Positions 34,051-36,703 of a stretch of DNA of 36,703 nt are shown here, in pieces. This DNA comes from Bacteroidota bacterium (GTDB lineage: Bacteria; Bacteroidota; Bacteroidia; B-17B0; Aurantibacillaceae): the NCBI GenBank assembly GCA_016194985.1, contig JACQAK010000159.1, positions 1-36,703 on the forward strand, read 5' to 3'. The notes below the pieces were generated by a model. That model was not told where the DNA came from, searched no databases, and saw only the letters and a list, made by a program, of their open reading frames with translations. The position numbers and the translations under genes were made by a program. Numbering within the stretch: position 1 is the first letter of the stretch; each line of letters opens with the position of its first letter.

Positions 34051-35269
34051 ACAGACATATCTTCAATGGGGCTATAATTTACCCTTGCTGATTGCATTCT
34101 TTTTGCCATTCGGAATTAATTATGCCATCTTTATTTTGGTATGGGCTATTGGCTTTTTTGCCTTTGATGATGTGAAAAATGGGTTGGTGCGTGTATTTAA
34201 AAACAAATGGGCTTATGTATTGTTGGGTTTCTTTTTAATTCATGCTCTGGGTTATTTTTTCTCGGTAGATAAGCCGGCTGCTTTAAACGCTATTGAAATT
34301 AAACTGAGTTTTCTGGCATTTCCCATTCTGTTGTTTGCCTCTCGTTATAACGATATGCAGGTAAAGAAGGTGATCATTTCCTTTGTGTCGGGATGTGTAA
34401 TGGTATCTATGATTGATATATTCAGAGCATGTTATTTGTATTTCTTTCAGGATTTCAATGCCTTTTTTTATTCGGAGTTTAGCTATTTTATGCATCCCAG
34501 TTATTTTGCCATGTACCTCATTTTTGCTCAATTAATGGTCGTGTTGTTTTATCCGAAATGGTTGGCAGAGCTCTCGAATCTTAATATTAAAATGGGATTT
34601 ATGTCGGTTGTATTTCTCACGACTATTTTTTTGTGTTCCTCTAAAATGGGTTTAATTACTGCCTTTTTGCTGCTACCCTTCACTTTTTGTGTGATATTGT
34701 ATCATCAGGGCTATAAAAAAATCATAGCAGGCTTAGTGATTGGATTGATCATTGCAATTGCAGCTGCCTATAAATTATTTCCAACTCCTTTCGAACGAAT
34801 GAAGATGGCATTTAAAGTAACCTCTTCTTCGCAAACCATTGATAAAACAGATGCCGAAAGCACGGCTGTGCGTATTTTGATCTGGAAAGAATCTGTTAAA
34901 CTCATCAAAGAAAACATTGTATTTGGTACTACCGCCGGTGATGCTAATGATAAATTGTTGGAAGCTTACGAGCGGGAAGGGTTGACAGGAGCATTGCGGA
35001 AAAAATTAAACGCCCATAATCAGTTCCTTCAAACCTTTATTGGTACAGGCATCATTGGTTTTGTTCTATTGCTATGTATGACAATTGGCGCACTGATCTA
35101 TGGTTTTATTCAAAAGAACTATATCTTCTGTTTGTTTAGCATATTGATCATATTTAATTTTCTGGTCGAATCAATGCTTCAGGCTCAGGCAGGATTTATT
35201 TTCTTTGCCTTTTTCTTTTGTATCTTAACACAGTATAATTTAGATAAATTTTCAAGTAAGAATTCATAA
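34034..35269 (+). CDS. O-antigen ligase/polymerase-like membrane protein (Wzy_C family)
   Basis: The 411 residues hold about eleven hydrophobic segments and one large periplasmic loop (roughly 240-330) with LNAHNQFLQTFIGTGIIGFV, the conserved His-Asn motif of O-antigen ligases. WaaL-type enzymes move the finished glycan from undecaprenyl carrier to lipid A core or another acceptor in the periplasm; Wzy polymerases look alike. Because the locus has an ABC exporter (which does not need Wzy), a ligase role is the better guess. The gene starts 17 bases before the end of the preceding one, and is followed by the aminotransferase gene after 28 bases. Confidence 0.85.
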   Translation: MLAKIKQTYLQWGYNLPLLIAFFLPFGINYAIFILVWAIGFFAFDDVKNGLVRVFKNKWAYVLLGFFLIHALGYFFSVDKPAALNAIEIKLSFLAFPILLFASRYNDMQVKKVIISFVSGCVMVSMIDIFRACYLYFFQDFNAFFYSEFSYFMHPSYFAMYLIFAQLMVVLFYPKWLAELSNLNIKMGFMSVVFLTTIFLCSSKMGLITAFLLLPFTFCVILYHQGYKKIIAGLVIGLIIAIAAAYKLFPTPFERMKMAFKVTSSSQTIDKTDAESTAVRILIWKESVKLIKENIVFGTTAGDANDKLLEAYEREGLTGALRKKLNAHNQFLQTFIGTGIIGFVLLLCMTIGALIYGFIQKNYIFCLFSILIIFNFLVESMLQAQAGFIFFAFFFCILTQYNLDKFSSKNS

Positions 35270-35297
35270 CTTATCTCTTATAACATAGCTAAACAAG

Positions 35298-36509
35298 ATG
35301 ATCCCATTCTCACCACCCCGTATAGATGATAAAATTATCAATGAAGTAACCGCTGCGTTAAAATCCGGTTGGATCACAACTGGTCCTCGTACCAAGGATT
35401 TTGAGAAAAAACTAACGGCTTATTGTGGTAATAAATCAACTTTATGTTTAAACTCAGCCACAGCCGGTTTGGAAATTATGTTGCGTTGGTTTGGAGTCAA
35501 AGAAGGCGATGAAGTGATCTTACCTGCCTATACCTATTCAGCAACCGCCAATGTCGTGATTCATTGTGGAGCAAAACCGGTATTTGTAGATGTGAATGCA
35601 GATGATTTTAATATCAACGTATCAAATATCGAGAAAGCCATTAATGAAAGAACCAAGGTTATTATGCCGGTTGATTTTGCAGGCTTTCCCTGTGATTATG
35701 ATGAGATCAATGCCTTAGTTGTAAAACATAAATCAGTATTCAAACCCAATTCAAAGAATCAGGAATTACTGGGAAGAATCATGATTTTATCAGATTCAGC
35801 CCATTCTTTTGGCGCTGATTACAAAGGTAAAAAATGCGGTGCTTTAACAGACGTATCTGTGTTTTCGTTTCATGCAGTGAAAAATTTAACCACCGCAGAA
35901 GGCGGTTCTATTGCTCTGAATTTTCCTGCTCCTTTTGATAATGAAGAGATTTATAAATACCTCTGTGTATTAACATTGCATGGGCAAAACAAAGATGCTC
36001 TGGCTAAAACCCAAAAAGGCAACTGGAAATATGACATCATTGAAGCGGGTTATAAATGTAATATGACGGATATGGCTGCAGCCATTGGTTTGGTGGAATT
36101 AGAACGTTATGATGATGATACTCAAATCAAACGCAAACAGATTTTTGACACTTATCAGGAGGCATTTTCAAAAGACGATCGCTTTCAAACTCCTGTCTAT
36201 CGTACGGATTCAAAAGTGGGCTGTTATCATTTGTATCCCTTGCGAATTAAAGGAATTACAGAGCAACAGCGCGATGCTATAATGAAAGAAATCTTTGATT
36301 GTGATGTGTCGGTAAATGTTCATTTCATTCCGGTTCCGGCCATGACTTATTACAAGAACCTGGGGTATGATATAAAAAACTACCCTACTACTTATGATAA
36401 TTTTAGCAGGGAGATTTCTTTACCTGTATTTTATGATTTAAGCCCAGAACAAACTCAAACGGTCATTAAAGCCGTCATTAGTTCTGTAAATAAGGTTTTA
36501 GAAAATTAA
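35298..36509 (+). CDS. DegT/DnrJ/EryC1/StrS family PLP-dependent sugar aminotransferase
   Basis: The 403-residue protein begins MIPFSPPRIDDKIINEVTAAL with GWITTGPRTKDFE, standard for the family, and carries the PLP lysine Lys195 in SFHAVKNLTTAEGG and the ring-binding Asp166 in SDSAHSFGAD. These enzymes convert a keto-sugar nucleotide to an amino sugar, giving a building block for the glycan. A stretch around residues 140-158 is a small insertion relative to the shortest members, also seen in other Bacteroidota enzymes. It is the only clear sugar-nucleotide enzyme in the locus, so the other precursors come from elsewhere in the genome. The glycan probably contains an amino sugar, consistent with FemAB-like partners. 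Confidence 0.92.
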   Translation: MIPFSPPRIDDKIINEVTAALKSGWITTGPRTKDFEKKLTAYCGNKSTLCLNSATAGLEIMLRWFGVKEGDEVILPAYTYSATANVVIHCGAKPVFVDVNADDFNINVSNIEKAINERTKVIMPVDFAGFPCDYDEINALVVKHKSVFKPNSKNQELLGRIMILSDSAHSFGADYKGKKCGALTDVSVFSFHAVKNLTTAEGGSIALNFPAPFDNEEIYKYLCVLTLHGQNKDALAKTQKGNWKYDIIEAGYKCNMTDMAAAIGLVELERYDDDTQIKRKQIFDTYQEAFSKDDRFQTPVYRTDSKVGCYHLYPLRIKGITEQQRDAIMKEIFDCDVSVNVHFIPVPAMTYYKNLGYDIKNYPTTYDNFSREISLPVFYDLSPEQTQTVIKAVISSVNKVLEN

Positions 36510-36515
36510 TAATTA

Positions 36516-36611
36516 GGGCGTGTCGGCGCAAAGATACAGCGCCGTCGGGCTGACCCGCTGCAATCTTTTGCAAGAGACAGGCAAAAGGATTTCCGCTCGC
36601 ATCCCTCACGC
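36516..36611. repeat. GC-rich structured repeat of Bacteroidota type, after the polysaccharide locus
   Basis: This 96-base block contrasts with its AT-rich surroundings. It has GCGTG (36518-36522) pairing with CACGC (36607-36611) at its ends, a hairpin CGGCGC/GCGCCG (36524-36529 with 36539-36544), and a second stem ATCTTTTGC/GCAAAAGGAT (36563-36571 with 36581-36590), giving a cloverleaf-like layout. The wording GGATTTCCGCTCGC...ATCCCTCACGC near its end is one I know from intergenic repeats of this phylum. It may be a REP-like element or double as a terminator for the locus. Confidence 0.6.
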
Positions 36612-36703
36612 AATCTATATTCAAATTTGTATATTCGTAATCAATTCATATTATCTTGCTAAAGCGCTTATTCGACATACTGGCCTCATTCATCGGAATT
36701 CTC
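36612..36703. other. AT-rich end of window without a recognisable gene
   Basis: Following the structured repeat, the remaining bases hold no open frame, promoter element or RNA gene that I can identify. They may precede a gene beyond the edge. Confidence 0.4.

Follow-up and report, generated by a model that had tools for sequence, protein, structure and literature searches.

A dispersed three-armed repeat of Bacteroidia whose long arm matches the Rfam family Flavo-1

Results and discussion

A 96-base GC-rich block at the end of a Bacteroidota contig (JACQAK010000159.1, assembly GCA_016194985.1; the window analysed is the whole stretch of 36,703 nucleotides) is one copy of a dispersed repeat that pairs into a three-way junction, varies patchily in copy number between related genomes, and contains, and in its own genome accounts for most of, the Rfam family Flavo-1 (RF01705). 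On balance, we lean towards reading the block as a singleton of a REPIN/MITE-like DNA element found in Bacteroidia, which is non-coding and non-autonomous and acts as a folded strand.

The window copy and its fold

The block begins 6 bases past the stop codon that closes the contig's last ORF, judged by eye to encode a putative DegT-type sugar aminotransferase, and 92 bases remain between its end and the end of the contig, which is also the end of the window (Table 1). The copy is a singleton, with no partner in those 92 downstream bases. Its ends had been named correctly in an earlier note made on this DNA from the letters alone, since other copies, when those of the own genome are aligned, share the limits GGGCG...CACGC; the note was also right that the block is richer in GC than its surroundings (0.60, against 0.23-0.47 for 100-base windows across positions 35000-36499). 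R1, a covariance model made from 21 copies of the own genome, scores the window copy at 97.6 bits and returns the same limits, although not independently, because the window copy was among the 21. No role for the copy in the polysaccharide locus is apparent, and insertion is likely to be tolerated where it sits, downstream of the contig's last ORF. Carriage by phages or plasmids was set aside, as blastn of positions 36500-36640 gave no match in either collection, a weak negative from one diverged query.

Structurally, comparative pairing gives a closing stem (P1), a hairpin (P2) and a long kinked arm (P3), that is, a three-way junction in place of the cloverleaf that the note had proposed, and the cloverleaf or tRNA-like reading was rejected on this ground. 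The outer GCGTG/CACGC pairing and the internal stems that it described do exist. Across copies, the P1 pairs alternate between GC, TA, AT and CG together with their partners, P2 has changes on both sides in 6 of 6 pairs, and P3 is made of stems separated by small internal loops, with a variable tip. RNAalifold, run on a MAFFT alignment of the 21 copies (window copy included) that was not fitted to the model (A1), returned the same structure and added two pairs, at columns 41-119 and 42-118, that were absent from the model input.

Two larger alignments were fitted to R1 and lean towards its structure for that reason. The first (A2) has 126 rows, which are the R1 matches that 86 loci fetched from the own genome gave at E<=0.01. 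One row (L037:1-62) is a truncated duplicate of the copy in L069; all 126 enter the pair counts below, and 125 unique copies were used for spacing. The second (A3) has 87 rows, the total of R1 matches in 78 of 80 loci from named genomes, taken among at least 119 exact-pattern stretches; its variation is under-sampled because the collecting pattern fixes most 3' strands of P1 and P3. Covariation was 0.371 in A2, versus 0.138 for shuffled rows and at most 0.074 with the partners slid, and 0.154 in A3, versus 0.049 and at most 0.033, respectively. Standard pairs fill 97.2% of cells in both, with both-side changes in 22 of 24 pairs (A2) and 13 of 24 (A3); of the two pairs that lie inside the GGG/CCC stem, the second, for example, is TA 56, GC 47 and AT 8 times in the own genome (n=126), and AT 41, TA 31 and GC 10 times in the named genomes (n=87). 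The stems alter their sequence and remain paired, which is the compensatory change that the earlier note had suggested looking for, and the covariation lies far above the controls. Folding of the single sequence was mixed relative to shuffles (plus strand, z=0.04 as RNA and z=-2.47 as DNA; minus strand, z=-2.33 as RNA and z=-3.13 as DNA), and the comparative evidence is decisive for the structure.

Table 1 Features of the window copy and its surroundings (positions in the window).
Feature	Position	Strand	Pairing, basis or remark
Upstream ORF, 403 aa	35298..36509	+	6 bases between stop codon and unit
Whole repeat unit (single three-way-junction unit, singleton)	36516..36611	- (strand inferred to fold)	BLAST and covariance model
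P1 closing stem, 5' side, GCGTG	36518..36522	+ letters	pairs with 36607-36611
P2 hairpin, CGGCGC/GCGCCG	36524..36544		36524-36529 with 36539-36544; sequence differs widely among copies
Match to RF01705 Flavo-1	36539..36620	-	36.3 bits, E 1.9e-6; permissive threshold
P3 long kinked arm	36547..36605	-	Flavo-1 core, variable tip
P3 GGG/CCC	36547-36549		with 36603-36605
P3 conserved C.T mismatch		C.T on +, G.A on -	between GGG/CCC and the T-A/G-C pairs
P3 pairs T-A and G-C	36551-36552		with 36600-36601
P3 step GC/GC	36557-36558		with 36595-36596; RY/RY across copies
P3 AATC/GATT	36562-36565		with 36588-36591
P3 TTTT/AAAA	36566-36569		with 36583-36586
P1 closing stem, 3' side, CACGC	36607..36611	+ letters	pairs with 36518-36522

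Relation to Flavo-1

At gathering thresholds, Rfam returned nothing in the window, where the copy falls below the curated 42 bits for Flavo-1; the repeat as a set does reach the family. In the own genome there are 89 Flavo-1 matches, 63 of them above threshold, and R1 copies enclose 61 of these 63 as well as 25 of the 26 weaker ones, while in the two best-scoring loci (C231, C172) the P3 arm has different ends and R1 does not match. Counts of Flavo-1 and R1 rise together across 20 genomes of the genus (Spearman 0.99), and in seven Flavo-1 alignments of other repeat copies the order of stems and loops on the minus strand of P3 is that of Flavo-1. The arm and the Rfam family have the same stems and the same GNA-type internal loops on the same strand, and differ in that the 76-position Rfam model is without P1, P2 and the doublet arrangement described below, and in that Rfam files RF01705 as an sRNA gene. 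Flavo-1 was catalogued in 2010 by Weinberg et al. as an orphan RNA candidate, and the founding table, as excerpted, gives it as probably RNA, not cis-regulatory, and from Bacteroidetes (PMC2864571); this family bears out the earlier note, which stated that comparable blocks, their function unsettled, occur in Bacteroidota. Among the partial texts of the open-licence literature searched, we found no description of Flavo-1 as a repeat or a doublet.

Copy number and distribution

Counting copies, as the earlier note proposed, gave 47 BLAST matches of the block in its own genome (4.23 Mb), itself included, and 115 matches by R1 at E<=1e-3. A single copy with no stem conservation would, according to that note, have spoken against an element; the genome holds repeat copies with covarying stems. 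In R1 searches at most 150 candidates were scored per genome, and at most 10 in the survey of the class. Within the genus, copy number runs from 0 to 115 per genome (20 genomes, own included), and across the class R1 matched in 152 of 396 genomes and 71 of 198 genera, most of the matching genomes listed having few copies (at most 10 scored). Named carriers include Flavobacterium, Epilithonimonas, Chryseobacterium, Lutibacter, Mariniflexile and Pedobacter, and metagenome-assembled carriers are labelled Flavisolibacter, Ferruginibacter and Cyclobacteriaceae. The unit was also seen in L156 (CALPUN020000052.1), titled as a Bifidobacterium breve MAG, which is probably a misbinned Bacteroidota contig.

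Tail-to-tail doublets

In the own genome, neighbouring copies separated by less than 120 nt are tail-to-tail in 35 cases, head-to-head in one and tandem in none, and the sole head-to-head pair lies between two adjacent doublets. With one additional tail-to-tail pair (126-nt spacer), there are 36 doublets with spacers below 130 nt, holding 72 of 125 copies; their spacers measure 25-27 nt in 6 and 43-53 nt in 28, placing 34 within 25-53 nt. Helical phasing of these spacers (27 versus 48 nt) was dropped as an idea, as genome G013 also has 19-nt spacers. Variants of P1 are matched within the unit: within doublets, 27 of 35 variant units match their own 3' strand exactly, as do 47 of 66 among all copies, and the same P1 occurs in both units of only 1 of 24 doublets with a variant P1. 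Since variant P1 stems are matched inside the unit and not across the doublet, the units therefore fold alone; left and right P1 are identical in 13 of 36 doublets against 10.6 expected, which is about chance.

Doublets were also found in G003, G013, G011, G004 and G001 of the genus, and some G011 copies stand in tandem mosaics. Beyond the genus they are rare (2 among the 87 matches in 78 of the 80 named loci, and none among 45 copies of the single-contig genomes G290, G160 and G404); doublets seem confined to the genus and near it, and singletons dominate elsewhere. With respect to neighbouring genes, gaps between convergent genes hold 13 of 31 classifiable doublets (5 of the 36 fall within an ORF call or at an edge and were left out), compared with 6 of 60 element-free intergenic regions (p=7.7e-4), which is what one would expect if insertions are tolerated at a distance from promoters.

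A second type of unit was observed, in which a P3 arm GGCACTCGCTTTTTTATTTG...CAAATAAAAAGAGCTCAAACAATGCC replaces the Flavo-1 tip and which stands tail-to-tail with a unit of the first type, at 26-27 nt spacing in L017, L022, L039, L042 and L060 and at 45-53 nt in L009, L011, L028 and L037.

Orthologous sites

The intergenic region at asnS, compared in 11 of 20 genomes, holds a doublet in G000, G003 and G013. G004 has one unit there, which starts exactly at GCGTG, and no unit is present in G005, G016, G017, G006 and G019; in G002 another insert with an ORF is present and no unit was seen, and for G007 the view covers the first 150 bases. G003 and G013 have this doublet in common at 91% identity. 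The arms differ in G000 at the same site, and have therefore been exchanged, or the site has been refilled. Where G003 and G013 were compared further (flanks 90-97% identical), at one site a single unit corresponds to a doublet whose arms are unrelated, and at another a doublet corresponds to its left unit only. Sites common to named species, recognised by eye (L131/L159, L146/L166 and L170/L197), show that part of the set is vertically inherited. The mobile non-coding element that the earlier note had inferred gains from the strong variation in copy number between sister species and from presence or absence at orthologous sites, and is not proven by them: no exact empty site, target-site duplication or transposition event was obtained in the sites compared, and transposition of the repeat is what we infer. 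Separately, G005 carries at asnS, where others have the doublet, an unrelated palindromic insert, GCGAACGAAGTGAAGCAATCTC...GAGATTGCTTCGGGC (L242), which suggests that this intergenic region is a hot spot for palindromic repeats.

Nested palindromes and MITE-like flanks

A perfect 16-base palindrome, TCCGCCAGCTGGCGGA, occurs at P2, at the P3 foot or at the P3 tip, depending on the copy (L009, L019, L031, L034, L039, L045, L081, L092 and others), as a nested exchangeable module. In the own genome, a MITE with the terminal inverted repeat (TIR) AATAATGTAGGTTTATTTT is found at 69 sites (<=3 mismatches), compared with 18 for a control pattern, examples being L268-L274 (C58:6076-6189, C224:1900-1989, C16:8217-8310); some of its copies hold a three-armed doublet and others are reduced to a remnant, GGGCG...CGCCC, as if a deletion had merged both units into a single palindrome. 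The likeness of our repeat to MITEs is that a subset of doublets sits between such TIRs; it differs in that most doublets are without them and that no autonomous parent was seen in the regions examined. Flanks to the left and right of the 36 doublets are hardly more similar to each other than cross-pairs are (17.8 versus 16.5), and no target-site duplication was recognised by eye.

These observations bear on the alternative that the units are selfish or neutral palindromes. Template switching and gene conversion between copies would then keep them perfect with no dedicated transposition, and they would spread either through rare illegitimate events or as passengers of the TIR MITE. We consider this alternative fairly unlikely, even though the few wobble intermediates, the differing arms at one orthologous site, the palindrome nested in several arms and the doublets inside the MITE would all suit it. 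Correction of palindromes leaves the conserved unpaired loops and the position of a G.A mismatch unexplained; in addition, TIR-like flanks occur in a minority of doublets, and the tail-to-tail spacing would still need a reason.

DNA or RNA, and which strand

That conserved mismatch, which is C.T on the plus strand and G.A when read from the minus strand, persists in 116 of 126 own-genome rows and 85 of 87 named-genome rows, and the other internal loops, judged by eye in the alignments, often have G-N-A opposite G-N-A on the minus strand. Such loops would suit RNA as well as DNA, and an unlikely alternative is that Flavo-1 is a genuine structured RNA, an sRNA or a cis-regulatory element, read from the minus strand and multiplied by selection for regulatory sites. 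In its favour, besides the Rfam listing and the G.A-rich loops, low-copy singletons are the usual form outside the genus, wobble pairs of the minus-strand type exceed those of the plus-strand type in the named genomes (19 versus 4, p=0.003), though not in the own genome (34 versus 38), and, in the excerpted text of a transcriptome study, several transcribed 5' regions coincide with Flavo-1 hits (PMC9723704).

Against it stands the near purity of the Watson-Crick pairing. Only 53 of 4132 P1 and P3 cells are G.U-type on the minus strand (42 of the plus-strand type), compared with 46 G.U pairs among the 481 helix cells of 23 tRNAs from the loci that were fetched, so that minus-strand wobbles are about sevenfold rarer than in tRNAs (p=2e-20; a rough yardstick, because ARAGORN accepts regular tRNA helices only). 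Nor is there a consistent orientation to transcription: in gaps between codirectional genes, the folded strand is the gene strand in 16 and the opposite one in 29 cases in the named genomes (45 of 87 units, p=0.07), and the same in 18 and opposite in 9 cases among own-genome singletons (27 of 53, p=0.12), so that neither set is significant and the two lean in opposite directions, gene contexts being taken from simple ORF calls (>=100 aa) and not from annotation. Furthermore, the same transcriptome study reports, as excerpted, Flavo-1 hits that are indistinctly sense or antisense and in many cases outside transcribed regions (PMC9723704), a doublet would put its two RNAs on opposite strands, and copy number ranges from 0 to 115 between sister species. 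The rarity of wobbles and the lack of consistent transcriptional orientation therefore favour a role at the level of DNA, and of the structured RNA that the earlier note had offered as one possibility, the identity of the long arm with Flavo-1 speaks for it and these two results against it. Replication-strand bias was also considered, and in the 3 sampled of 9 single-contig genomes searched GC skew was too flat to place origins.

The note's other suggestion, a terminator, is not supported. A scan for a GC-rich hairpin followed by a T run gave no intrinsic terminator within the block, and what follows the outer ends of doublets is usually A and not T. One terminator-like site was seen in L026, inside one unit of its doublet (shuffle mean 0.7).

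Comparison with REP systems and the mobilising enzyme

In way of working, the repeat resembles the REP, BIME and REPIN systems with RAYT (PMC3116915, PMC2817692, PMC3733652, PMC6006769), which are likewise extragenic palindromic units with inverted doublets at preferred spacing, mosaics and strongly varying copy number. It differs in its size and shape, about 96 nt and three-armed here versus a 20-40 nt hairpin for REP, and in that no flanking RAYT was found. Inverted doublets at preferred spacing characterise the own genome but neither the named loci, with 2 doublets, nor G290, G160 and G404, with none; no cognate RAYT flanked by the unit was found, and no constant unpaired tetranucleotide of the GTAG/CGTC foot kind could be seen by eye in the printed units. 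CGTC REPs, which form dimers and have no associated transposase gene, offer a parallel, but they have 8-9 bp stems and 4-5 nt loops and are mostly head-to-head (PMC3733652, as excerpted). Because a RAYT was not found and doublets are mostly a feature of the genus, we group the repeat with REPIN/MITE-like elements by way of working and not by membership.

Y1 (HUH) transposases neither track nor flank the repeat. A single Y1_Tnp gene, of IS200-like type (NCBIfam transpos_IS200), is present in the own genome; Y1_Tnp occurs in 5 of 10 genus genomes with >=20 copies versus 7 of 10 with fewer, and its count does not follow copy number (Spearman 0.10). High-copy genomes without it are G003 and G008, which are incomplete, and G007, G011 and G018, which are 93-99% complete, G011 (99%) having 71 copies. 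At the 24 Y1_Tnp loci of the genus there was no R1 match. Because the excerpted PMC6006769 reports a Bacteroidetes subclass of TnpA-REP flanked by atypical structures, the class was searched with a protein assigned by motif to subclass 2.6, which matched in 183 of 392 genomes; R1 matched weakly (34.8 bits) in 1 of the 30 subclass-2.6-like loci delivered, and an Rfam scan of 15 of these 30 gave no Flavo-1. A resident RAYT or IS200 as the driver was therefore rejected, as neither counts nor flanks fit. Searching for an autonomous parent between inverted copies, we scored 20 regions (15 in G011, 2 in G004, 2 in G001 and 1 in G018); six were viewed and one (L326) was checked for ORFs >=80 aa, and no transposase was recognised by eye.

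Other repeats were seen beside such genes. At L047:1230-1938 (C57, ~77477-78185), the own Y1_Tnp gene follows some five arrayed copies of another palindrome, AAGCCCGCAGGGCTTGAACATG, apparently a REP-type repeat belonging to that gene, and in L346, L361 and L364, from other Bacteroidia, TnpA-REP-like genes (NHIH...YIHNNP type) are flanked by short hairpins of their own, e.g. GCGGATTTGCAATCCG, distinct from the three-armed unit.

That the unit is a REPIN proper, recognised and mobilised by a resident RAYT (TnpA-REP, Y1 HUH), is accordingly quite improbable: its doublets, intergenic location and copy number are REPIN-like, but half of the high-copy genomes lack the gene, nearly all loci of such genes lack the unit, and the single one in the own genome adjoins a different array.

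Proposed mechanism and implications

Under the reading that we favour, a dispersed DNA element, the active form would be one folded DNA strand, the minus strand, exposed when the DNA is single-stranded and bearing the internal loops with their G.A mismatches, and a structure-specific enzyme supplied in trans would recognise the kinked P3 arm and the closing stem. The doublet would be the form that multiplied in the genus, REPIN-like; singletons would be the common and probably older form elsewhere, and may here also be half-deleted doublets. Going further, and only tentatively, we posit that Flavo-1, instead of being a gene for an RNA, might serve as the recognition arm in a REP element of a novel type. 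That element would be a unit of Bacteroidia DNA shaped as a three-way junction; it would have multiplied in this genus as tail-to-tail doublets through a structure-specific single-strand enzyme other than a Y1-RAYT, and its copies could swap whole arms with one another.

Flavo-1 has been listed for 16 years among bacterial sRNA candidates, and a small-RNA survey, as excerpted, ranks it among the abundant families (PMC9029176); if Flavo-1 is a mobile DNA structure, those abundance counts mean something else. The orphan family gains a concrete, testable identity, the copies of the repeat form a natural series for the study of recognition and pairing upkeep of folded DNA strands, and the repeat points to a further mobilising enzyme in Bacteroidia.
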